In this document: positions 1-25,035 of the stretch, one piece after another
Position numbering within the stretch: position 1 is the stretch's first letter
Layout of the letters: each line of letters opens with the position of its first letter
Assembly: GCA_903789375.1 (NCBI GenBank)
Contig: CAIFEB010000005.1
Span: 8,344 to 72,343, forward strand
Source: an uncultured Eggerthellaceae bacterium
GTDB taxonomy: Bacteria; Actinomycetota; Coriobacteriia; Coriobacteriales; Eggerthellaceae
Reading direction: 5' to 3'
Length of the DNA stretch: 64,000 bases
Translations under genes and position numbers: made by a program
Notes under the pieces: generated by a model
What the model was told of the DNA's origin: nothing
The model's input: the letters and a program-made list of their open reading frames with translations, nothing else
Database searches by the model: none

Positions 1-92
1 GGGGGTCGGCCCCCGCCCCGGGGGGGGGGGGGCCCCCCCCCGCCCCCCCCCGGGGGGGGGGGGGCGGGGGGCCCCCCCCCCCCCCCCCCCCT
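1..92. other. Low-complexity G/C-only stretch at window start
   Basis: This stretch is alternating homopolymer runs of G and C, with a single T at position 6 and no A. No coding or structural signal can be read in it. It ends abruptly where normal sequence with a ribosome binding site begins. It looks like an assembly or sequencing artefact at a contig end rather than biological DNA. That is an inference; a real GC homopolymer tract cannot be excluded from the sequence. Confidence 0.7.
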
Positions 93-12762: not shown

Positions 12763-13041
12763 TCAATTAGCCTCATCATGGCAAAACCGTCCGAGATACC
12801 ACGCTTCGCCTTGATCCGCCAACTGAAATACACGCTGCACTTGCTTTTCACTTAAATCGGTTCGGCAATTAACGGTCTCCTTTATAGCCTTCACCTTAAT
12901 CCTTGCCATGCGCCCATTGGGTTTCTTACAGCAAGGCCTAATGAATATGCGAATCCAAAACCGCAAATCGTTCATCGACTCAACCAGTTCTTCATATGGC
13001 GCCGATTCAAGCAGAGCTTCTACTTCGAGTTCTTGTTTCAT
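12763..13041 (-). CDS. Hypothetical small protein at the edge of the low-GC block
   Basis: 92 residues starting at an ATG with AGGGGA eight bases upstream. It is charged and has no membrane segment; CCKKPNGRMARIKVKA is a basic stretch near the middle. I recognise no family. Base composition is clearly lower in GC than the exporter to its left and matches the molybdoenzyme block to its right, so it is probably the last gene of that block. An overlapping frame after residue ~75 also looks protein-like (GISDGFAMMRLIENEVAREA), so a frameshift or a decayed longer gene is possible. Confidence 0.45.
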   Translation of the reverse strand: MKQELEVEALLESAPYEELVESMNDLRFWIRIFIRPCCKKPNGRMARIKVKAIKETVNCRTDLSEKQVQRVFQLADQGEAWYLGRFCHDEAN

Positions 13042-13249
13042 ACGAGTATCCCCTGACAAGCATGCGCATGCAGAGCCTGCTCGCCCCAAAACAAGCGAGC
13101 AGGCAACCATGCTCATTCATCCATGAAAACGCTGCGCTAACCAACTCCTTGGCAAGCGAGGGTTCTTTCGCCACGCAAAGGAGCGCAAACGATTGCTATC
13201 TGTACGCCATCATGCGGGAAAATAAAACTCCCGGCTCAAATGCCTGCGC

Positions 13250-14404
13250 TCAGTTAGCAGAACCCGCCTTAATAGGAACCATCGGTGGCTTTAACATAGG
13301 CGCTGCGGTAGCATGCGCTTTAACCATGGCCAGCTTCTTGTATTTGGTCTCCAAATCGGACTTGAAGTCCTCGTCTACCGAACCGTCCGCACGAACGTAC
13401 GTCGCACTCTTCGTAACCAGCTCCGTCACTTTTGCGCGTAATGCGAGATCTTTGAACCCATCGATTTGCCCTGATTGCTCGGCCTCTACACGAGCTTCGT
13501 ACGTTCTCTCAGGAGTTGGCTCTCCGAACATAAAGTTGATATCTTCGTCTTCCAATTGCACATCGAAATGGTTAGCCCACGATGCCAACGCTATATCCTG
13601 GCTGATACGGTTCGACGCATCTTGGTGGACCTGGGAAGTAAAATCCTCATCGCTGATTCCTTCGATTGCCAGATATGAAGCTCTATCCAAATCGTATTGT
13701 TCGAGAAAGCGTTCAAACTCATGCATAATTTGCTTCTCGACATCACGCACAGGATTTTCAGGAAGGTCGTCAACCAGTCTCTCACCGATTTGCTTAACTA
13801 CATCGTACTCAACTTTGTTTGAGTACGCACGTTTGCGCTCTCGCTCAAGCCGCTTTTTCGTTCTTGCTTTGAATTCGGAGACCGTGTCGGACAGAGCGAT
13901 GTTCTTCTTCACCCACTCATCGGTTATTTCGGGCACGATGTACCGCCGAAGAGCCAGCACTGTAATTGTCGATACTAGATTAACTTGCTGAGGTTCGCCG
14001 GCGTCTCCTGCACCACACCCGCCATCTGCCGGAGTCTCAAATTCATTGGCTACCTGTGAATAGTCTTCGTATACGTAGGAAACCTCAATGTTATCACCCG
14101 GCACGTGCCCCATGAGCGCTATTTCGACATCCTCAGGAAGCGTGCCAACCCCGAGTTGAACGTCAACGGCTTCGCTCGTCAGTCCTGGAAACGCATTTTT
14201 TCCATCCAGCGTCCTAATCTTGATTCTGACCAGGTCATCCGCATTAATCGGATGCGGTTCGATATCCACATTTGTCGCATGCCGCGCCGCAATTCTTCTC
14301 ATTTCCTTCTCGGCGTCTTCATCCGAGACCTCAAAGTTCGGAAGCGTCAATACCACCGGATCGTACGAGTTCAGCTGGTAATCGCCGTACTTCTCGCGAA
14401 TCAT
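13250..14404 (-). CDS. Trigger-factor-like chaperone lacking the ribosome-binding domain
   Basis: 384 residues resembling trigger factor from its linker onward. Residues ~25-50 (VSDEDAEKEMRRIAARHAT) match the pre-PPIase helix. Residues ~55-125 match an FKBP-type PPIase core (VDVQLGVGTLPEDVEIALMG). The rest matches the C-terminal chaperone arms (VPEITDEWVKKNIALSDTVS, then LERERKRAYSNKVEYDVVKQ). The normal N-terminal ribosome-docking domain with its GFRxGxxP signature is missing. It is therefore unlikely to be the cell's general trigger factor. Being last or nearly last in the molybdoenzyme gene set, it may be a dedicated folding helper for that enzyme; this is inference. The ATG at 14404 has AAAGAGG six bases upstream. 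Confidence 0.75.
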   Translation of the reverse strand: MIREKYGDYQLNSYDPVVLTLPNFEVSDEDAEKEMRRIAARHATNVDIEPHPINADDLVRIKIRTLDGKNAFPGLTSEAVDVQLGVGTLPEDVEIALMGHVPGDNIEVSYVYEDYSQVANEFETPADGGCGAGDAGEPQQVNLVSTITVLALRRYIVPEITDEWVKKNIALSDTVSEFKARTKKRLERERKRAYSNKVEYDVVKQIGERLVDDLPENPVRDVEKQIMHEFERFLEQYDLDRASYLAIEGISDEDFTSQVHQDASNRISQDIALASWANHFDVQLEDEDINFMFGEPTPERTYEARVEAEQSGQIDGFKDLALRAKVTELVTKSATYVRADGSVDEDFKSDLETKYKKLAMVKAHATAAPMLKPPMVPIKAGSAN

Positions 14405-14567
14405 AGCAACCTCTTTCATAACCAAATGCAGCGTGGGTAGCAAAGCTTCCAAAGCCGAAGAAATTAGCAGCGCGGCGATGGCCGGCAGTGAAACTCTTAC
14501 ATATGACGTAAAAATTCGCCATAGCTAATAGTTCAACTAGTTATCCCGGCCATCGCACACGACCCAA

Positions 14568-15806
14568 TTAGATTTTTACTACGTTGCCCTTCTCGTCATA
14601 GAGCTTCAGAATGCCCCAGAACACTGCCGCTGCGAGCTGTGCGATGCAAACGAAGTAAGCAACGCCACCATACCCTGCAGCACTATCAATAATCATCCCG
14701 GAAAAAACCGGACCGAGCCACATTCCCAAATCGATGAACATCGTATAGAGCGCCATGGCGCCTGGCGCCAATCGCGGATCGGGAACCGCTTGGCTGACCA
14801 GCGTCCACATAGCGCAGCAGAAGCCCGACTCAATCAACGCGTACAGAATCATCATGGCTATCGCGCCACCAAAGCTGGTGATGCGGAAAATCAAGAAGAA
14901 CACAACTGCGTATAGAATCGAATCAACAACAATGAACAGACGACGCTTATGGACCTTGTTCAGAATGATGCCTGCGACAATCGTTCCGAAAATTTCAATC
15001 GTGAATAATGCACCTGTGAGTTCCGTTGCGAGAGCCTGATCCATACCACACTGCGTAATCCAAAACGGTGCAATCCAGTTAATCACAACAGAGTTTGAAA
15101 GACCAAACGCCAAGGCAGCGAGACCCACAATCCATGCAGAACGTACCTTGAACACATGCGTTATCTTGGTGCCTTCATCCTGCACATCCGCATGGTTGAA
15201 GTCTTTGGGAGGCTCCTTCACCACTACAGCTGCAAGAATCAACCCTACGACTAAGCAAACGATTGCGACAATCCACAAACTTTTCCAGTTTCCGCCGAAG
15301 GCGCTGGTCAGAGGAATGCTCAAATAGAAGCAAAGCGAAATGCCCACCATCTGCCAGTTGCTCCAAATGCCCATCGGCGCGCCGCGTTTTTCAATAGGAA
15401 ACCACATGGCGATAACCGAAGGGCCGATGATGCCCACAAGGCCCAACCCAACGCCTTCGATAATTCGGCTGGCAATCAGCGAACCGTAATCACCAGAAAA
15501 GAACCCAATCAGACCTCCGACGATTCCGAAAACGGTTGATAAAATCAAACCTTTTTTCACGCCAAGCTTCTGAATGACACTTACCGCAGGAAACGCGAGG
15601 ATGATGCCGGTAAACGTGAACACGCCGGAAATCATTCCTGCAGATGCGCTGTCAATCGCAAGGGACTGCTGAATGTTAAGCATAACAGCACTCGTCTTGT
15701 ACTGCGCAATAGCCATCATGATACCGATGATCCATACCGCAATCATCACAGCCCACGCACCAGGCGCCATTTTTGGAACCATCGATGAGGAAGGTGGCTG
15801 CGCCAT
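14568..15806 (-). CDS. MFS transporter in the molybdoenzyme block
   Basis: About 412 residues with twelve hydrophobic segments and MFS features such as GRIDG-like EGVGLGLVGIIGPSVIAMWF and GAPMGIWSNW. It is clearly a close relative of the MFS carrier at the right end of the window (shared GIWSxW and EGVxxGLxxxIGP). It sits in one direction with the molybdoenzyme, Fe-S and zinc-ribbon genes and probably imports or exports the enzyme's substrate or product. Start uncertain: the ATG at 15806 gives a usual short N-terminal tail but its AGAAGG is too close. A GTG at 15842 with GAGGGG is the alternative. Confidence 0.85.
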   Translation of the reverse strand: MAQPPSSSMVPKMAPGAWAVMIAVWIIGIMMAIAQYKTSAVMLNIQQSLAIDSASAGMISGVFTFTGIILAFPAVSVIQKLGVKKGLILSTVFGIVGGLIGFFSGDYGSLIASRIIEGVGLGLVGIIGPSVIAMWFPIEKRGAPMGIWSNWQMVGISLCFYLSIPLTSAFGGNWKSLWIVAIVCLVVGLILAAVVVKEPPKDFNHADVQDEGTKITHVFKVRSAWIVGLAALAFGLSNSVVINWIAPFWITQCGMDQALATELTGALFTIEIFGTIVAGIILNKVHKRRLFIVVDSILYAVVFFLIFRITSFGGAIAMMILYALIESGFCCAMWTLVSQAVPDPRLAPGAMALYTMFIDLGMWLGPVFSGMIIDSAAGYGGVAYFVCIAQLAAAVFWGILKLYDEKGNVVKI

Positions 15807-16084
15807 CCCTTCTTCTTTGACATTATCCGCCAACTCAATCACTGTCCCCTCATGAGCTTGAATAGCCCCATTGCTCTGAAATTCCGAAACAATCGAGCCC
15901 GCATGCTTCCATGCGTTCGAGGTTCTGCGAAACCTCGAATCCCCTATAAACAAGCTTCCAAGAGGCTCTACTCCACGTATACCAAGCCCTTTCAGCAACG
16001 CCTCGAGACTTCCACGCGTGTATGAGAACTCAAAACCGCGGAAGGGAGCAATCCCCCATTGCCCCCTTCCAAATAGTGCGCTCG

Positions 16085-16318
16085 CTACAGAGCAGGAGGC
16101 TTCGGTGCCCCTGGTGCGCTCGGAGCCTGCGGAGCAGCAGGCACGCCTGGCGCCTTCGGAGCGCCAGGCGCCGATGGCGCCCCCGCTGCCGGCTCATCAG
16201 GTAAATCAGCTTTGCAGAACGGACACTTTTTTAGTTTCACTCCGCCCATGACGGGAACTTCTTTGCCGCAGCTCGGACATATCGTTTTCTGCTCGGCGCC
16301 GGCTGGTCTAAAGCACAT
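16085..16318 (-). CDS. Zinc-ribbon protein with Pro/Ala/Gly-repeat tail
   Basis: 77 residues. The first half has two CxxC knuckles (CPSCGKE and CPFCKAD) typical of a zinc ribbon. The second half is a flexible tail of repeated APGAPKAPG-like units with no hydrophobic segment. GGGAGG precedes the ATG. It lies between the MFS gene and a small helical protein in the same direction. Function unknown; a metal-binding adaptor or a scaffold for the enzyme complex would fit. Confidence 0.75.
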   Translation of the reverse strand: MCFRPAGAEQKTICPSCGKEVPVMGGVKLKKCPFCKADLPDEPAAGAPSAPGAPKAPGVPAAPQAPSAPGAPKPPAL

Positions 16319-16351
16319 GGGTAACCTCCCAATCTACTACGCAATCGATCA

Positions 16352-16570
16352 CTACCAAGCGAACCCGTTATCTCCACGGCCCGGCTTAAGCCTCACCTCG
16401 TTACCAATCTTGATAAGCCCAAGCCCATACGGTGCTGATAAGCCAGCCTCTTTCTTCGTGACGCCGACATCAGCGAGAATGTCCTCGTATTTCTCACCAG
16501 CAGCAAGGCGACCGTTGAAGTAATCGAGCCGTTCCTGGTCGGACATCCCGAACACTGTTTCCTTATCCAT
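16352..16570 (-). CDS. Small conserved-looking protein beside the Fe-S subunit
   Basis: 72 residues, starting at MDKETVFGMSDQERLDYF. The middle (AAGEKYEDILADVGVTKKEA) reads like a helix-turn-helix or small helical bundle, and the tail is basic and glycine-rich. There are no cysteines and no membrane segments. It lies 33 bases from the zinc-ribbon gene and 70 from the ferredoxin gene, all leftward, so it belongs to the same gene set. I do not recognise a family; either a small regulatory or structural subunit is possible. Confidence 0.6.
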   Translation of the reverse strand: MDKETVFGMSDQERLDYFNGRLAAGEKYEDILADVGVTKKEAGLSAPYGLGLIKIGNEVRLKPGRGDNGFAW

Positions 16571-16640
16571 GAGAACCCCCAATTCTCCTTCGGACCGGGC
16601 GCACGAATTGCGCCCGGTCCATACAAAGCCACTCGCACAC

Positions 16641-17000
16641 TTACATCGGCTTATAAATGGCAACCTTCTCGCCGAGTTTTTCAGACTTCTTTGCCAGCTC
16701 CTCCACCGGACCAAAGTCAAGGCAGAAAGTCAGACAGTGCTTCACGCACATCGGCTTTTCGCCTTCGTCAAGTCGCGCGGCGCACAAATCGCACAGGTCG
16801 GTAGGTACGGGGATATAATCCCAATCCCAACGATCGTCGAGCGTGTCGTTGTCTTTGCGGAACGGTCCCTTTTCGAATACCTGGATTCCCGACTTCCCTG
16901 CAGGAAGATCTTTGATCTCCTGGCAACCAACCACACAGGAGCCGCAATTGTCACAGTACTTGTAATCGACCAGCAGACCGTAATTGCTGTAATCAGCCAT
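16641..17000 (-). CDS. Ferredoxin-like Fe-S subunit of the first molybdoenzyme
   Basis: 119 residues with two cysteine groups: YCDNCGSCVVGCQE near residue 15 and LCDLCAARLDEGEKPMCVKH near 70, enough for about two [4Fe-4S] clusters. It is shorter than DmsB (four clusters) and resembles the small electron-transfer partners of cytoplasmic Eggerthellaceae molybdoenzymes. It lies 27 bases downstream of the catalytic gene. The ATG at 17000 has GGGAG nine bases upstream; an in-frame GTG at 17009 abuts the site and is less likely. Confidence 0.85.
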   Translation of the reverse strand: MADYSNYGLLVDYKYCDNCGSCVVGCQEIKDLPAGKSGIQVFEKGPFRKDNDTLDDRWDWDYIPVPTDLCDLCAARLDEGEKPMCVKHCLTFCLDFGPVEELAKKSEKLGEKVAIYKPM

Positions 17001-17027
17001 AGTTCTCACTCCCTTCCTTATTTGGAC

Positions 17028-19397
17028 TTATTCGAGAATCTCGCGAGCAGTCTCCGCATCCTTAATCCAACCGTGGGATTCAACCAGCGTCGGAGGAATC
17101 TGTTTGAAGTTGCTCTCGTTCTGATCATCCAGGCTGGATACCTTACGCATGTTGACCATGATGCCCTTGGCAGGTGTTCCAAATCCGAGATTGCCAACGT
17201 TGTAATGCGGCAGGAGCAAATTGAAGTTCGACTTGAACACACCGTACAGATTGGGAGCTGAGCCGTCTTCCTCGGGGAACCACCAACCATGCTGGCAATG
17301 AACGGTTCGCTCATCAATGGTCGGCGTGACCTTCGCGCGCCAATTGCCCTTGCCGAACATGTTGTAGACCTGCACCCAGTCGCCATCCTCGATGCCGTAC
17401 TTTTCTGCGGTCTTTGGATTAATTTCCACCAGCGGATCGGGATTCAGCGCACGCAGACGAGGAATCTGGCGTTGCTCAGAATGGAAGAACGCCGACACAC
17501 GAGCACCAGAGGTAGCCATGAGCGGATACTTCTCAGCCAGCTGAGGCTGTGACACCTGTGTGTAGTTCGGCTCCTCGAAGTAGGGCATCGGATCCTCGCC
17601 CCATGCGTCGTACAGAACCGAGTACAGCTCGAACTTGCCAGTTACCGTGTTAAAGCCAGGCTGCCCATCGTTGCGGAGCATGCCCTTTTCGTACTTCCGA
17701 TACGTCATCGGCGGGAAGTACACGCCCATTTCCTTGAACTCATCGAACGTAAACGGCAGCAGCGGCTCGTCGTCAAGCTGTTCATCCAGCCACTCATGGA
17801 CATTGTTGTACTTGGACCAGTTCGCCTTCGGCGTCACGCGGCGGCCAACCTCGTAGCAAATTTCCAGGTCGGATTTCGTCTCACCGGTACTGAACGCTTT
17901 AGCCATGCAGCCCAGCCACACATTGTTGGACATGTAGTACGGGATAACGAATCCATCGTGCTCAGCATACGTCGTCATCGGAAGGAACAGGTCGGCTAGG
18001 GCTTCAATCGTCGGATTCATGAACAAATCCGTCGCCACCGTGTGCTCCATAGGCAGCAGCGCCTTGTACCAGCGCTGATTCTGCATACTGCAAGTAGCCG
18101 ACAAGAAGTTCGACGAATTGATCCAAGCCATCTTTACGGCATAGGGTTCACCGGTCTCGAGCGTCTCAAGCGTTTCATCAGGATGCGTCGAAGCCATAGT
18201 CGCCGCGAATGCCGGCCACTTTCCAACACCGATACGCTTTTCCCACATCTCGTCGGAGAGATACTGACGAGAGTCCGTGCACCAATGACCCAGACGAACT
18301 GCGGGATCACCGACGGTCAAGCCGCCCGGAACATCGATGTTGCCCGTGATTGCCATGATAGACAGGATGGCATGGCCTGCCTGGACGCCGTTCTTGTTCT
18401 GGTCGATTGCGAGACCCCACTGGATGCACATCGGATGGTTCGTCGCCATGATGCGCGCGGCGGCTCTGATTTCCTCCGCCGGCACCCACGTTTGCTTCTC
18501 AACCAGCTCGAGCGGATACTCATTCACGCGTTCTGCCAGCTCATCGAAGCCGTAGCACCAGTTTTCGACAAAGTCGTGGTCGTACAGATCCTCATTAATG
18601 ATGACGTTGAGGATACCAAGAGCCAGCGACGCATCAGTTCCGGGCTTCAGCTGCAGGGTCATATTGCCCTTGCGCGCACCCAGCCACGTGACGCGCGGAT
18701 CAACGACAATGAACTTCGTGCCACGCTTCATCATGTCAATGAGTGAATGACCGAAGAAGCCATCGCCATTGGACCAGAGCGGCATCTTGCCCCACTCGAC
18801 GACAACCTTCGTCAGCTCATAATTAGGATTGTCAAAACGGTCGGGGAAATAACCGGTATCCAGCTCGGGATAGCCAGCGCCCAAAATGTAATCGGCAACC
18901 GACGAACGCGGGCCATAGCACGACCAGCCAGACTGCGCATAGCACAGGTTGGGCGTATTCAGCACCGAGAACGCCATCGGGTAGTAGAACATGCAGGCTT
19001 CGCGACCGGTGCCGCCGAAAACGACGATTGCCTCACGGCCATATTTCTTCTCGATGTCATCGACCCACGCTTTGATGAGATCGTAGGCCTCATCCCAAGT
19101 AATCCGCTCCCACGCATTCGCGTCACCGCGCTTCTCGGGGTCACGCTTCATAGGATAGATGATGCGCTTGGGATCATACGTGTAGTCTTTAAGCGCCAAG
19201 CACCGAGGACAAAGCCTGCCTTGGGTAATGGGGTTCGTCTCATCACCCTCGACGCGAATCAGCTTTCCGTCCTTAACGTACAGCTCAACGCCGCATCCAA
19301 CGGGATGGTCTCCCGGAGGGGACCACGCGCAGGTCCGAAAGATTGTGGAGCCATCTGGCTGGGGCGTTTGCCACTCATGGTCAAACTGCTTGTCCAT
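17028..19397 (-). CDS. Molybdopterin oxidoreductase, catechol-dehydroxylase-like
   Basis: 789 residues of the DMSO-reductase family, bis-MGD type. The N-terminus holds an FS0 [4Fe-4S] site: Cys23, His31, Cys35, Cys63, Cys66 (TCAWSPPGDHPVGCG and GRLCPRC). Then come YPMKR and WERITWDEA, and a C-terminal dinucleotide-binding domain. There is no Tat signal, so it is cytoplasmic. The CAWSPPG/LCPRCLALK pattern is typical of Eggerthellaceae enzymes, including the dopamine and catechin dehydroxylases. Gene company (small ferredoxin, MFS, divergent membrane LuxR) also fits those clusters. The substrate is unknown; a reductive dehydroxylase or other small-molecule reductase is my inference. GGAAGG precedes the ATG. 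Confidence 0.88.
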   Translation of the reverse strand: MDKQFDHEWQTPQPDGSTIFRTCAWSPPGDHPVGCGVELYVKDGKLIRVEGDETNPITQGRLCPRCLALKDYTYDPKRIIYPMKRDPEKRGDANAWERITWDEAYDLIKAWVDDIEKKYGREAIVVFGGTGREACMFYYPMAFSVLNTPNLCYAQSGWSCYGPRSSVADYILGAGYPELDTGYFPDRFDNPNYELTKVVVEWGKMPLWSNGDGFFGHSLIDMMKRGTKFIVVDPRVTWLGARKGNMTLQLKPGTDASLALGILNVIINEDLYDHDFVENWCYGFDELAERVNEYPLELVEKQTWVPAEEIRAAARIMATNHPMCIQWGLAIDQNKNGVQAGHAILSIMAITGNIDVPGGLTVGDPAVRLGHWCTDSRQYLSDEMWEKRIGVGKWPAFAATMASTHPDETLETLETGEPYAVKMAWINSSNFLSATCSMQNQRWYKALLPMEHTVATDLFMNPTIEALADLFLPMTTYAEHDGFVIPYYMSNNVWLGCMAKAFSTGETKSDLEICYEVGRRVTPKANWSKYNNVHEWLDEQLDDEPLLPFTFDEFKEMGVYFPPMTYRKYEKGMLRNDGQPGFNTVTGKFELYSVLYDAWGEDPMPYFEEPNYTQVSQPQLAEKYPLMATSGARVSAFFHSEQRQIPRLRALNPDPLVEINPKTAEKYGIEDGDWVQVYNMFGKGNWRAKVTPTIDERTVHCQHGWWFPEEDGSAPNLYGVFKSNFNLLLPHYNVGNLGFGTPAKGIMVNMRKVSSLDDQNESNFKQIPPTLVESHGWIKDAETAREILE

Positions 19398-19499
19398 GTT
19401 GCACCTTCCTCTTCTCTTTCCCCTCGTCTCAACGTCAGCGCTTCATGCGCCGCATTTGGAACATATCGAGAGAGCGCAGCCTGAAATAGGCTCCAAAAA

Positions 19500-19632
19500 G
19501 TATGAAGAAGGTATGAATTCGCATCCAAGCGTAGCCCCGTAAGCCCCTGGTATGACGGCTCTCATACCAGGGGACCAAAGGTATGATATTTGCGTTCTAA
19601 TCTGGTGATATTCAATCCCTGTACAGGTATGA
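19500..19632. promoter_or_regulatory. Cluster of GGTATGA elements, candidate operator array
   Basis: GGTATGA occurs at 19510-19516, 19549-19555, 19580-19586 and 19626-19632 on the + strand and at 19562-19568 on the - strand. A GTATGA lies at 19500-19505, exactly 11 bases from the first copy. The pair at 19544-19555 and 19562-19573 forms a perfect 12-base inverted repeat with a 6-base centre. Half-sites CATACC also occur three times in the leader of the adjacent LuxR gene (20394, 20429, 20488). Binding by that LuxR protein is an inference. Confidence 0.6.
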
Positions 19633-19741
19633 GACTTCCATGCAGAGACGGATGCACGAGGGAGGTTAAAGAAGCGAACCGCAACAAGCCTACAAACCAG
19701 AACAGAGTACGCGTACAAGACTGGATATGCTCCTATCCTGC

Positions 19742-19790
19742 AGAAATAGAAGCGGCGCAACGGATAGTCCGTCGAGCCGCTTCTATTTCT
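19742..19790. terminator. Strong 49-base hairpin downstream of the zinc-ribbon gene
   Basis: AGAAATAGAAGCGGC (19742-19756) pairs perfectly with GCCGCTTCTATTTCT (19776-19790). Inside the loop, ACGGA and TCCGT pair again. A T-rich stretch follows on the + strand (19796-19805). It could terminate the leftward zinc-ribbon transcript, or end an unannotated rightward RNA. No protein gene reads into it from the left on the + strand. Confidence 0.6.
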
Positions 19791-19909
19791 CCAACTATTT
19801 TTGTTTGAAAGGCTGCTTGGTGCTCAGCACGCCTTTCGGCGCGAGCGCTCAATCAAATCACAACGCACGCCGCGCTCGACGCTTCAATGACGATTGCCTC
19901 TGAAATCCG

Positions 19910-20263
19910 CTATGACTTTGACCTTGCAAGAATCTGCTTCTTGCAAGGATCGTCCTGCGGTCCTCGCTCCCGATCCCTTCTTCCGCAAGGGTAGCCACAT
20001 ACAATGCCGCTGTACGCACACGATGCGGGCTGAACCGAGTTTCGGACTTCGGGAAGTAAGTCCGCTCCGCATTTTTTGCAGCGAAAGCGCTCGTGCAGCC
20101 ATTCACTCTGCTCATGCACGGCCCCTTTACGTTTCCAGTATCCCAAGGCGTATAAAAAATCTTCTCTTTTGTACATTGTGGCTTTCCCGCATTCGGGGCA
20201 AACAATGCCTTTGAGTTCTGCCGGTTTGCACTTATCGCACAGAGCACTGCAATACATGCACAT
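19910..20263 (-). CDS. Zinc-ribbon protein between molybdoenzyme and LuxR genes
   Basis: 117 residues. Eight N-proximal cysteines form knuckles: CMYCSALCDKCK, VCPECGKAT and RCKKCGADL, indicating one or two zinc ribbons. The section after residue ~80 is Arg/Gly-rich with four more cysteines and looks less conserved. The DNA for the last residues contains a perfect 11-base hairpin (19922-19932 with 19938-19948), so the real protein may end earlier through a frameshift. AGGGG lies eight bases before the ATG. It reads toward the molybdoenzyme. Its role is unknown; a metal-binding or nucleic-acid-binding accessory protein is possible. Confidence 0.6.
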   Translation of the reverse strand: MCMYCSALCDKCKPAELKGIVCPECGKATMYKREDFLYALGYWKRKGAVHEQSEWLHERFRCKKCGADLLPEVRNSVQPASCAYSGIVCGYPCGRRDRERGPQDDPCKKQILARSKS

Positions 20264-20520
20264 GCGCCACCACCCCTATCGCTTTGTCTTCAGAATATTT
20301 TGAGACAGAGCTGTTCGCAATCGTGCGTTTCGATCGATTAATCACGCGGGTCGTACTGGTGCGCTAACCATCATCCTTCTGGTACGATACAAACATACCG
20401 TCAAGGAATGAACAGTTTGGGGACTGGGCATACCTTCTTCGGATTCCGCTTTGCGAAATATCCAATGTGCATTTCAACAAATTTACGCATACCATGACCG
20501 AAGCAGGAAGCAGGTGCTCA

Positions 20521-22334
20521 ATGAACAACGGTCAGAATGACCGACCTTCAAACGGCGACCTTCGAATCGGGAAATTCTTCGAAGGAACAATAGCTCTAGC
20601 CATCGGCATGTCTGGCATACTCCTGATGGTATTCAGATCTCCCTTAACGATTCGCACACTCGAAATCAACGGGCTGTCGATTCCATATCTGATTGTCTAT
20701 TCCGTGTTCGTCACTACAGCTTTGCTTATCACAAGGCCTCTGACTGATCGCTTGAACACGGAAAACGGATATCAGCTGGTAAAGCTCTTCGCTTACGTGG
20801 GTCTGTGCATCGCGCCATTTGGGCTTATGACGACCCCCCCCCCGCAATTTCAATAATTGCAATCGCTACCCTCTCAATTGGCACCGTCTCTGCTCTGGTT
20901 ATCTATTGCAACTATCTATGCGACTTCGATCACATACAGCTCGTCGCCATCATTTCCTTCGTCGCGCTTATATCCCTGTTTACAACATGCATCTTCATTC
21001 TTGCGAGCGTCTCATTCGGATTCTGCATCGTCGCTTCCGCTGCCCTCAATTGCCTTGGTATCACTATCTGCTGTCGAATCGCGGATCGAACCCCCCTTTT
21101 CCGAGTAAGTGCAGCGGAGTCGGAAGAACGAGCCACAACGCGAAACATCGATCGTTTTACATATTGCCTAATTGGCATTGACTTTGGTTTTTCATGCGGA
21201 TTCATAATCCTAAGCGCTAGCGTATTCCAAGCCTCTACCCCAAACAGCACGAGCATGGAAGCACTAGCCCTGCTGATACCTGCCTTATTTGCAAGCACCC
21301 TCCTTCTATTTTTCAGGAACCAGCACCAATACGCCGTTGAGCACCTTTCAAAAGATTATTTATCTGCGAGCATAACAATCTGCCTCGCCGCAGCAATGCT
21401 AGCGCAAGACGACATTCGGCTCATTGCAATTGCCGTTGTCCTATTCCTTGCAAGCTCCCAAATGCTCATCGCGATCAATGCAAGCGTTGAATTCATCCGA
21501 TGCGAGAACCTATCCCCCATATGGTATATGGCTGAGGATGGGTTCATAGCGCTCGGATTTGCTATTGGCTTGTGTTTTGCCTGGTGGGCATCGGGATACA
21601 GTCTTGCGGAAGACGATTTCGCTTATGCAAGTCTCGCAATAATTGTCATCAACGTAAGTTTGCAGCCGCAAATCAATAAGGGACGCTACCCTCTGCTCAT
21701 CTCTCAATCTTCGCCGATTCTACGCGCACAAGCAGCGCAATCGTCCGCTCAAACAACCGAGGAGAAGCGGCTGTGCATAGATAGCAACGATGTTACGCGT
21801 TCGGATGGCTCAACTGACGAAACCGCGCCAAGCGTCCAATCTGAGGACCACGCGGATTTTAAGATCAGTCGCAATTCTGGCGCTCTCTTTTCGATGCAAA
21901 GCATCATTGAAGATAGTCCGAAAGCCGATTCGGAACCAGAACTAATACAGCAAGCTAATCCGTCGCACTGCGGCGATTCACTTCTTCAGCACGACGACGG
22001 CAGTGTGCTGAAACCATCATTTACGGCAAATGACATCACACCGGCGATTGCCGCTTACGGTAACGGCAGCGGTCATAAAAAGGGAAGCTATCAGAAAAAA
22101 ATCGACTACATAAGCAACGTTTGCAACCTGTCGCCCCGCCAGCACCAGATTCTGGGGTACCTTGCACGCGGCAGAGATGCACGCTTCATCGAAGAGAAGT
22201 TCTGCATCTCGCACTCGACTGCAAAATCGCATATCTACAACATTTATGGGAAACTTAACGTGCACTCGAAGCAAGAGCTCATCGACAAGATTGAGCACAC
22301 GCAAGTTCCGCGCTACAGAGATGATCCGGAATAG
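20521..22334 (+). pseudogene. Membrane-bound LuxR regulator, frameshifted at a C10 tract
   Basis: Codons 1-105 run from ATG 20521 to ten consecutive C at 20834-20843, after which the frame closes at TAA. The next frame continues from there to 22334. One extra C (C11) or two fewer (C8) would give one protein of about 604 residues. That protein has a membrane domain of roughly a dozen helices, a polar Ser/Asp-rich linker, and a C-terminal LuxR HTH (NLSPRQHQILGYLARGRDA ... HSTAKSHIYNIYGKLNVHSK). Such proteins are typical Eggerthellaceae sensors that switch on a neighbouring molybdoenzyme. It is divergent from that block. It may be phase-variable, truly dead, or a sequencing error; the intact downstream frame argues against long decay. 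Confidence 0.8.
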
Positions 22335-22415: not shown

Positions 22416-23816
22416 CTAGAACTCCAGATGCTTGAACGCCTCAGGCACTTCCTTGTAGCCGTGCGACTTCACCGCGCCCACGATGAGGCCGATGACGAAC
22501 CACGTGATGCCCACCGCATACGTGAGCGTCTGGAATCCGGTGAACACGTACGCCAGAATCAGCACGCCGCACCACGGGCAGATGAAGTACTTCACCCAGT
22601 CGCCGAACGTCTTGCGCTGGTTGTGCTTCACGAAGAAATACCAGAACACGGCGAAGTTCAACATGATGAACGAAGCCAGCGCGCCGAAGTTGACGAGCGT
22701 GGACAGGTCGGCCATGCCCAGGATGTTCGTCAGGATCAGCGCGACGATGCCGATGAAGATGGCGCCCACGTACGGCGTCTTGTACTTCGGATGCACCTTG
22801 CCGAACACCGACGGAATCACCTTGTCGCGGCCCATGCCGTACAGCAAGCGCGACGCGGCGAGCTGCGCGTTCATGATGTTCGCGATGCCCACGGCCACGA
22901 TGTTGATAACCAGCATGATGCGGTAGAACACGTCGCCGCCGATCATCTGCACGCCGTAGAAGAATGCGTTGTCCATGTGCTGCTCGTCCCACGACGCATA
23001 GTCGGGCTGGATGAGCGACGCGATGTAGGTCTGCGCGATGAACGCCACGATGATGATGGCCAGCGCGATCATAATGCCGCGACCGATGTTGCGCTCGGGG
23101 TTCTCGGTCTCCTCGGCCAAAGTCGAGATGCCGTCGAAGCCCAGGAAGTTGAGCGCTGCGATGGAGATGCCCGCGGCGACGAACGACGCATTAACCTTCT
23201 CAGGCTGCCAAATCGGATCCATGGTGAATCCGGAGCCGCTGGGGCCCAGGATGTACTTGCAGCCCAAGGCGACGAACGCGATGACCGCCACGACCTCGAT
23301 CACGAAGATGACCAGGTCCAAGCCCTTCGTCAGATTGACGCCGCGGATGGTGACGAACGTGTTGAAGATGATGAATACCAAGATCCACAGCCATGCAGGG
23401 CTGCCCGGAACCAGAAGCGAGCCCCAATTGCCCACCATCACGTACAAAAGCGCCGGCGAGATGCAGTAGTCAAGCAGGATCAGCCAACCGGCGATGAAGC
23501 CGACGTGCGGATTGATGCCGCGCTGCACATACGAGTACACCGATCCCGCGATGGGGAACTTGTTGGACATGCGCATGTAGCTGAGCGCCGTGAACATGAT
23601 GGCGATGAAGCCGATGATGTACACGAGCGTGGACATGCCCAGGCCCTGCACCTGCACCAAGCCCCAGATGGACTGCGGTGCGATGATGACCATGAACAGA
23701 ACGCCGTACAAAACGACGTCGCGCAGGCCCAGGCTTCGCCTGAGCTCCTGCTTGTAGCCGAACTGCTCGAGCTGACTCGAATCAGCGCTGGCAGCGGCCT
23801 TCTTCCCTTCCGCCAT
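22416..23816 (-). CDS. APC-family amino acid or amine permease
   Basis: 466 residues with twelve hydrophobic helices and the APC consensus in helix 1 (LRDVVLYGVLFMVIIAPQSI) and GSVYSYVQRGINPHVGFIAG in helices 2-3. It is a proton- or gradient-driven importer in the inner membrane. The gene follows the formamidase gene by 152 bases in the same direction, with a terminator after it, so the two probably form an operon that takes up and cleaves an amide or related nitrogen source. Substrate not readable from sequence. Confidence 0.9.
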   Translation of the reverse strand: MAEGKKAAASADSSQLEQFGYKQELRRSLGLRDVVLYGVLFMVIIAPQSIWGLVQVQGLGMSTLVYIIGFIAIMFTALSYMRMSNKFPIAGSVYSYVQRGINPHVGFIAGWLILLDYCISPALLYVMVGNWGSLLVPGSPAWLWILVFIIFNTFVTIRGVNLTKGLDLVIFVIEVVAVIAFVALGCKYILGPSGSGFTMDPIWQPEKVNASFVAAGISIAALNFLGFDGISTLAEETENPERNIGRGIMIALAIIIVAFIAQTYIASLIQPDYASWDEQHMDNAFFYGVQMIGGDVFYRIMLVINIVAVGIANIMNAQLAASRLLYGMGRDKVIPSVFGKVHPKYKTPYVGAIFIGIVALILTNILGMADLSTLVNFGALASFIMLNFAVFWYFFVKHNQRKTFGDWVKYFICPWCGVLILAYVFTGFQTLTYAVGITWFVIGLIVGAVKSHGYKEVPEAFKHLEF

Positions 23817-23968
23817 TGCATTCCTTTCTGTTTCGAACCATTACCCTGAAGGCGCAACGCGGTAGAGTTCGACGGGCTGGGCGGCGTTCTACCGAGCCCG
23901 CTGAATCCTGCTGCGTCTGCGGCCGCGCACTCCTTTCGCGCGCGGCTGCGCCCTCGCACGCAAACGGC

Positions 23969-24871
23969 CTAACGCTGGCCGATGAGCGGCTTGAACTGGG
24001 GCAGCTTCGGTGCGCCGAAGCGCAGCGAAAGCTGGACCTCGCACGGCTTGCACGCCTGATTGAGCTCGACGTCGCACTGCACCGACATGTACATGTACGT
24101 TTCGACGGCGCTCCAGCCGGTCACGTCCATGAGCAGGCGCTGCAGCTCCTTGCTGGCGGCCATGAGAGCCTCGTCGAACTCCTGCGCTGACGCGTTGACG
24201 TACCACTTGTCGGCGGTTTCCAGAACGGGCCAGTTGAGCGCGAAGTTCTTGATGAGCTGCGTGCGCACGGTGATGCGCGCCGGAATCTCGATGCCAGTGC
24301 CGCACAACTCGGCGTCGCCCATGGCGGCGTGCACGTCGCCCATCTGCAGCAACGCGCCCGGCACACGCACCGGGAAGTACAGCCTGGCGCCCTTGCCGAT
24401 AAGCTTGTTATCCATGTTGCCGCCGTAGTTGCCCACGTAGCCGTCGATCACGTCGTCTCCGTCGGGCGCGCACCCGATGACGCCGATCATGGGCTTGATG
24501 GGGAATTTCACCTCGTTGAACTGGGCGAACCCGTCCTTGATGGGGATTTTCTTAGTCTGGTAGCCGGTCGTCTCGTACAGCGGCCCGCAGTGGTCGTCGG
24601 TCGAGATCGTTCCCTCGTCGGCCACCGTCAGGTCGAGGATGTCGACCACCAGCACGTCGCCCGGCTCCGCGCCGTCGACGAACACGGGACCCGCCGCGGG
24701 ATTGGCCACGTCGTAGCCGTAATCGAGGTCGGCCATGGTCACATCCTCGGACGTGATGCGGTTGGAGAAGCAGTCCTTCGTTTCGAACAGCAGCATCTCG
24801 CCCGGCTGCACGTGGCAACAGGGCTTGTTGTCATTCGAGAACTTGTAGACCTGGTCTTCGATCACTTTCAT
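23969..24871 (-). CDS. Acetamidase/formamidase (FmdA/AmdA family)
   Basis: 300 residues of the FmdA_AmdA family, which hydrolyses formamide or short amides to ammonia and the acid in the cytoplasm. Recognisable family segments include GPVFVDGAEPGDVLVVDI, the STDDHCGPL region and QMGDVHAAMGDAELCGTGIE with its conserved acidic and His residues. The ATG at 24871 follows GGGAGGG by three to four bases. A strong promoter lies 165-195 bases upstream. The permease gene downstream is the likely transport partner. Confidence 0.9.
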   Translation of the reverse strand: MKVIEDQVYKFSNDNKPCCHVQPGEMLLFETKDCFSNRITSEDVTMADLDYGYDVANPAAGPVFVDGAEPGDVLVVDILDLTVADEGTISTDDHCGPLYETTGYQTKKIPIKDGFAQFNEVKFPIKPMIGVIGCAPDGDDVIDGYVGNYGGNMDNKLIGKGARLYFPVRVPGALLQMGDVHAAMGDAELCGTGIEIPARITVRTQLIKNFALNWPVLETADKWYVNASAQEFDEALMAASKELQRLLMDVTGWSAVETYMYMSVQCDVELNQACKPCEVQLSLRFGAPKLPQFKPLIGQR

Positions 24872-25035
24872 TGTTCCCTCCCTGCGTTTGACTGCTGGCG
24901 TGTTTGCGCTGGTGACGCGGCTGCCGGCAGACGTAGGATTCCGCCTGCCACGTCGCTCGCCCCCCAAGCACCGAGCGCAAAAACAATGACGTGCATTATC
25001 CCCCTCATGTCCCGGGAATCCTAGGGGATGGGTAG

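Follow-up and report, generated by a model that had tools for sequence, protein, structure and literature searches.

A molybdoenzyme gene block with a trigger-factor-like protein as its putative dedicated chaperone in an uncultured Eggerthellaceae bacterium

The 64-kb stretch of contig CAIFEB010000005.1 from an uncultured Eggerthellaceae bacterium (hereafter the window, meaning the whole stretch) carries at 12763-22334 a block of genes centred on a molybdoenzyme, which we consider to be, with fair probability, an inducible dehydroxylase operon equipped with a dedicated maturation chaperone derived from trigger factor (TF), comparable to PceT/RdhT. Leftward from 19397 the order is molybdoenzyme, ferredoxin, a 72-residue protein (p72), a Cys-rich ribbon protein (CysRib), an MFS transporter, a TF-like protein and a small open reading frame (ORF). 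The earlier sequence-only reading had described this run of seven leftward genes together with an upstream zinc-ribbon gene (ZnRib) and a divergent membrane LuxR gene; all of them lie at the coordinates and on the strands given for them, and domain searches agree with their descriptions.

The proposal of a dedicated chaperone starts from the TF-like protein (13250-14407, minus strand), for which about 14407 is a better start than the one first set, giving a length of 385 aa. It matches Trigger_C (1.2e-15) and TIGR00115 (1.1e-35), the latter with 123.3 bits, which is under the cut-off of 180.2 bits for the Tig equivalog. A profile built from five homologues aligns to trigger factor residues 110-316, and the protein itself begins at about residue 110 of E. 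coli trigger factor, so that residues 1-109, which form the ribosome-binding domain, are missing and with them the GFRxGKxP ribosome motif of canonical Tig, and the peptidyl-prolyl isomerase (PPIase)-like and C-terminal chaperone domains are kept. The AlphaFold2 model, with a predicted local distance difference test (pLDDT) score of 82, likewise points to a trigger factor fold, its eight best Foldseek matches all being trigger factors. Judged from its sequence, the protein would be derived from trigger factor and no longer ribosome-bound, and it looks like the molybdoenzyme's own dedicated folding helper. The genome has 10 TorD-family (PF02613) genes, none of them near the block; the two that fall within the window are at about 35.5 kb and 43.7 kb.

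The sequence-only reading had named the lack of a conserved neighbourhood in other genomes as a reason to give up its proposal. Two Gordonibacter, sp. 28C and sp. Marseille-P2775, have a complete module in a different gene order, with the LuxR gene divergent from ZnRib - TF-like - molybdoenzyme - ferredoxin - p72 - CysRib - MFS. The Gordonibacter proteins are 88-89% (molybdoenzyme), 63% (TF-like, in both), 74-75% (ferredoxin), 70-72% (CysRib), 55-59% (ZnRib), 46-48% (MFS) and 30% (LuxR) identical to those of the window, and 57-73% for p72, over differing alignment lengths. A reduced module, LuxR - TF-like (44%) - molybdoenzyme (78%) - ferredoxin - p72 - MFS, is present in the Coriobacteriales metagenome-assembled genome (MAG) Cf509_bin7, and across these three copies the ferredoxin is 72-75% and the MFS transporter 46-48% identical to the window. 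The TF-like gene stands 5' of the molybdoenzyme gene in the two Gordonibacter and the Coriobacteriales MAG and 3' of the MFS gene in the window, and it is retained in all four module copies despite this rearrangement. Close homologues of it beyond the window were found only in the two Gordonibacter (among 138 genomes of the family).

Such retention speaks against a general role of the TF-like protein, as stress factor or post-translational chaperone, with its place in the block owed to chance or hitchhiking and the molybdoenzyme matured by housekeeping factors, an explanation that we regard as unlikely. A wider survey bears on the same question. Among 60 TF-family loci of Eggerthellaceae, picked from the list of TF matches blind to their neighbours, 15 of the 30 TFs without the GFRxGKAP motif have a molybdoenzyme gene within 7 kb, in contrast to 0 of the 30 with the motif (Fisher p = 6e-6); counted per genus, proximity was seen in 7 genera for motif-less TFs as against 0/20 for motif-bearing ones (p = 0.0014). 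The spacing can be as tight as 0.3-0.6 kb (L094, L110, L132), and at three loci (L155, L156, L165) the TF gene is about 1.1 kb from a ferredoxin gene. Furthermore, related and shorter TFs lie beside other molybdoenzyme clades, which also disfavours a general chaperone. We observed further shortened TFs of 241-335 aa between LuxR and molybdoenzyme genes or beside a molybdoenzyme gene in Gordonibacter and other genera; those of 241-277 aa (L191:5110-5835, L193:5188-6021, L109:11799-12575), all beside a molybdoenzyme gene, consist of little beyond the C-terminal chaperone domain.

The zinc ribbons behave similarly. Relatives of ZnRib lie within about 6 kb of a molybdoenzyme of at least 37% identity at 25 of 33 loci, and CysRib-related ribbons adjoin many other molybdoenzymes. 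The idea of the sequence-only reading that the chaperone and ribbons are private to one block has to be revised, since motif-less TF paralogues and both ribbon types recur beside many paralogous Eggerthellaceae molybdoenzymes. This recurrence points to accessory genes not yet described for an enzyme of known kind; what had been put forward as an undescribed system is new in its accessory set, but it is not an unrelated new system, as the enzyme family is known.

Several observations weigh against a dedicated chaperone or against an intact operon. The hosts of the four module copies are relatives, and phylogenetically the loci are not independent. The other 15 of the 30 motif-less TFs are away from any molybdoenzyme, for example in a presumed E. 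lenta, and such cases occur in many Eggerthellaceae, which implies that motif-less TFs have further roles too and fits a general chaperone. Some of the TF-molybdoenzyme distances are 2-5 kb, between non-adjacent genes in molybdoenzyme-rich genomes, and one motif-bearing TF (L109, outside the 60-locus sample) is 2.1 kb from a molybdoenzyme. In the sister molybdoenzyme clade (58-60% identity), CysRib and MFS genes and weak matches to p72 occur with no nearby TF, so an adjacent TF is not universally required, again as a general chaperone would have it, and the LuxR reading frame is broken in the window copy. A general role has precedent in Myxococcus xanthus, where several TFs with a defective N-terminus persist and have diverged in function (PMC11559001). 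A second widespread family of motif-less TFs (L147:6977-7897, in a presumed E. lenta, and similar loci) is unlinked to molybdoenzymes in Eggerthella. Taking both sides together, we still favour the dedicated chaperone for the block, and we extend it only tentatively, at somewhat less than even chances, to a route of the whole family in which ribosome-free TF duplicates (some also without the PPIase domain) and Cys-rich zinc ribbons replace TorD/NarJ as chaperones of individual enzymes in the greatly expanded set of cytoplasmic molybdoenzymes.

The molybdoenzyme itself (17028-19397, minus strand; 789 aa) matches PF00384, PF01568 and PF04879 (Molybdopterin, Molydop_binding and Molybdop_Fe4S4), is classed as an enzyme with a bis-molybdopterin guanine dinucleotide (bis-MGD) cofactor and belongs to a family that is large in Eggerthellaceae. 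Judged by its N-terminal sequence, MDKQFDHEWQTPQPDGST, it has no twin-arginine leader, and the presumed Mo-ligand Cys, Cys160 in the window enzyme, is kept throughout the aligned set. Its best PDB match is acetylene hydratase (2e7z, E 2.8e-75), which we rejected as its identity, the similarity being distant and the pattern of Fe-S ligands different. Acetylene hydratase is also the characterised enzyme most closely related to catechol dehydroxylases, of which the Gordonibacter-type enzymes are smaller, lack a twin-arginine translocation (Tat) signal and have a small 4Fe-4S protein and an MFS transporter nearby (PMC7028382). The window block agrees with every one of these points, its enzyme being close in length to the roughly 780 aa of that type, and the likeness to catechol dehydroxylase clusters seen in the sequence-only reading is borne out by the enzyme family, the ferredoxin and the MFS transporter; a membrane LuxR gene is linked and divergent, with a broken frame. 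On sequence grounds, the enzyme is a member of the cytoplasmic, acetylene-hydratase-related, Tat-less, Gordonibacter-type catechol dehydroxylase family, whose kind removes hydroxyl groups from compounds of plants.

Two landmarks allowed us to place it within this family. One is a tandem molybdoenzyme pair in a 3,608,022-bp genome that we take to be G. pamelaeae 7-10-1-b. The two enzymes are 74% identical to each other, which fits (+)-Eldh1/2, whose mutual identity is 74% (PMC11887054). The other is a locus with a molybdoenzyme, a ferredoxin, an Amidohydro_2 protein and two MFS transporters, which fits the eam cluster (presumptive Eadh); earlier eam candidates, found via PF04909, were dropped as their molybdoenzyme was absent or wrong. 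With the inferred Eldh and Eadh enzymes, which fall in other clades, the window enzyme shares only about 41-42% of its residues, and we rejected both as its identity; in the tree it forms with the three other module copies a separate clade with 98-100% local support. Clear grouping with a known enzyme whose clusters already hold the accessory genes, the other result that the sequence-only reading had said would speak against it, was thus not what we saw. Given this identity to the landmarks and the separate clade, the reaction can be proposed from the family only, and we leave a modest chance that the enzyme, with its accessories used in the same way, runs a different reaction, either redox or of the acetylene hydratase kind (hydration, transfer of a hydroxyl group, or dehydroxylation of a non-aromatic substrate like the side chain of a steroid). 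Besides the low identity and the subclade of its own, this would fit a family of which most members are uncharacterised and the finding that the steroid 21-dehydroxylation cluster of E. lenta has a molybdoenzyme and a ferredoxin (PMC11835702). However, the characterised cytoplasmic members covered by PMC11887054 and PMC12771579 dehydroxylate catechols or phenols, and the ferredoxin, MFS transporter and, its broken frame apart, membrane LuxR agree with catechol dehydroxylase clusters; dehydroxylation remains our preferred reading. Within the family we also noted a widespread group of orthologues (L043-L064, representative L043, about 55% identical to the window enzyme) that has lost the N-terminal 4Fe-4S Cys ligands (NTWSPPGSHPVGYGV...GRVNAMNL) and retains the presumed Mo-ligand Cys; in a sister group (L091/L093) the N-terminal ligands are partly lost.

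The genes next to the molybdoenzyme gene are all on the minus strand. A two-cluster 4Fe-4S ferredoxin (16641-17009), similar to NrfC, DmsB and the FDH beta subunit, would by its sequence be the electron-transfer subunit of the enzyme, and the MFS transporter (14568-15998; MFS_1, 5.5e-36) probably carries its substrate or product. CysRib (16085-16318), with a Pro/Ala-rich tail, recurs beside the molybdoenzyme family, and ZnRib (19910-20263; 117 aa, with an MCxxCxxxCxxC N-terminus) has related ribbons near other molybdoenzymes; a Pfam search of both gave sub-threshold matches at best. p72 (16352-16570) is present in all four module copies, with homologues in both Gordonibacter and weak matches in the sister molybdoenzyme clade. 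Its AlphaFold2 model (pLDDT 80) looks like three helices and a beta hairpin, for which Foldseek and PDB profile searches gave no significant fold match, and we therefore gave up an assignment as winged helix. The small ORF (12763-13041) had been counted as the seventh gene of the block, but it has no tblastn match in the other three block copies, nor a Pfam or NCBIfam match, and for want of a counterpart in those copies it probably does not belong to the module. Immediately right of the block, at 22416-24877, there are amino-acid permease and formamidase-like genes with normal, high GC content at third codon positions (GC3).

Regulation by the membrane LuxR (20521-22334, plus strand; GerE, 6.6e-12) is suggested by the promoters. 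TCATACC occurs seven times in the 64 kb, five of them within 19510-19632 upstream of the molybdoenzyme gene (a cluster assigned to neither strand), where a perfect 12-bp inverted repeat, CCCCTGGTATGA-N6-TCATACCAGGGG, lies at 19544-19573 (0 expected). TCATACC/CATACC half-sites are also grouped at 20264-20520, between the LuxR and ZnRib genes. The Gordonibacter genomes have TCATACC at the same two promoters, upstream of the molybdoenzyme gene and between LuxR and ZnRib, accounting for 3/3 occurrences in 20 kb in 28C and 3/4 in Marseille-P2775. Since membrane LuxRs respond to the substrates of catechol dehydroxylases by switching on the genes for these enzymes (PMC9734109), we consider these half-sites to be candidate LuxR sites and the cluster a candidate LuxR operator. 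The LuxR gene is indeed divergent, as first described, but it is longer than noted then, starting further upstream at about 20521, and a frame break at a C10 tract (20834-20843) had been missed; of the two resulting ORFs, the upstream one corresponds to residues 67-155 and the downstream one to residues 157-558 of the intact LuxR from Gordonibacter. The tract may be an assembly error, decay or a slippage switch. Poly-G/C tracts are numerous in the genome, and those inspected near other loci are not clearly within LuxR genes. Runs of poly-G and poly-C reach 27 bases, often as pairs of a G-run and a C-run (window 20-91; elsewhere in the assembly C8:26041-26085, C12:2989-3050 and C6:57551-57560).

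The broken frame raises the question of whether the window copy is a decaying recent island, with a LuxR pseudogene and a silent operon. Base composition and distribution could be taken in the same sense: as had been seen from the sequence, the GC content of the block is low, with a GC3 of 0.47-0.69 vs 0.82-0.90 in the flanking genes on both sides, and the block is missing from most relatives. However, its remaining genes are intact and 46-89% identical to their Gordonibacter counterparts, and the altered homopolymer may come from faulty assembly or from a slippage switch that can be reversed, which makes decay distinctly improbable in our view. The Gordonibacter copies have a native, high GC3 of 0.78-0.95 and occupy a different chromosomal site, adjoining, as judged from translations, a YebC/TACO1-like gene and ruv genes. 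The differences in position and composition are compatible with horizontal transfer, and the acquisition proposed in the sequence-only reading is likely on these two grounds, in either direction.

Putting these elements together, we envisage that the MFS transporter would bring in a substrate from the diet, either a small aromatic compound or a related one, which the divergent membrane LuxR would sense and answer by turning on the operon via the TCATACC half-sites. The TF-like protein, as a trigger factor duplicate free of the ribosome, would then hold the apo-enzyme until the Fe-S cluster and the Mo cofactor are inserted and, because the molybdoenzyme has no Tat peptide, its contact would be with the folding polypeptide. 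ZnRib and CysRib probably aid assembly of the metal centre or assembly with the ferredoxin. The ferredoxin would supply electrons and the molybdoenzyme, by analogy with its family, would reductively remove a hydroxyl group.

The described Gordonibacter-type systems (Dodh, (-)-Eddh/Cldh, (+)-Eldh1/2, Gs Vadh, Gp Hcdh and Eadh1-3) share with the window a Tat-less, acetylene-hydratase-related bis-MGD enzyme and an adjoining small 4Fe-4S protein and MFS transporter, and they often have a LuxR (PMC7028382, PMC11887054, PMC12771579), whose frame is broken in the window copy. The window differs from them in the clade of its enzyme, described above, and in the addition of the TF-like protein, the zinc ribbons and p72. 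These additions are unmentioned in the main texts of the open-access dehydroxylase papers searched, an absence that is not proof but agrees with the earlier view that the chaperone and ribbons are foreign to described catechol dehydroxylase clusters. Searching open-access main texts, we found no trigger factor reported together with either catechol dehydroxylase or acetylene hydratase, nor is one mentioned in a review of how molybdoenzymes mature. The Elen_2451-2454 cluster for steroid 21-dehydroxylation also combines a molybdoenzyme and a ferredoxin for reductive dehydroxylation in Eggerthellaceae, but its accessories are FdhD and an SPFH protein, with TF or zinc ribbon unreported (PMC11835702).

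As to the chaperone, PceT is a TF-derived dedicated chaperone of a reductive dehalogenase and, like the protein studied here, it is encoded together with a complex metalloenzyme (PMC8905343), a likeness seen in its description. The client of PceT is an exported corrinoid dehalogenase, bound at its Tat peptide, whereas the presumed client here is a Tat-less molybdoenzyme. TorD/NarJ/DmsD chaperones such as DadhF have the role proposed here, that of a private chaperone for a bis-MGD enzyme, and E. lenta Dadh requires accessory genes including one for a TorD-like chaperone (PMC11887054), but their fold and family are unlike those of the TF-like protein, and none is encoded near the block. Extra bacterial TFs are rare and those kept are typically N-terminally defective (PMC11559001); the M. 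xanthus paralogues covered there are likewise diverged TF duplicates that lost ribosome binding, but the passages considered tie them to no molybdoenzyme operon, and Coriobacteriia go unmentioned in that paper. Both the type of enzyme and the precedent for the chaperone are known, and it is their combination that appears undescribed in the open-access literature.

We believe that the conserved TCATACC sites make reporter-assay searches for the regulator and the substrate practical. If our interpretation is true, the block would add to PceT a second trigger factor turned into the private chaperone of a metalloenzyme, and the TF and ribbon genes would serve as a marker for functional clusters. 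Coriobacteriia of the gut hold dozens of uncharacterised dehydroxylase-like molybdoenzymes acting on molecules from diet, host and drugs; standard hosts failed to yield active enzyme, and the E. lenta type has been shown to depend on its accessory genes. Ribosome-free TFs and zinc ribbons would then be the accessory factors so far lacking for the cytoplasmic type, which would explain the failed expression.

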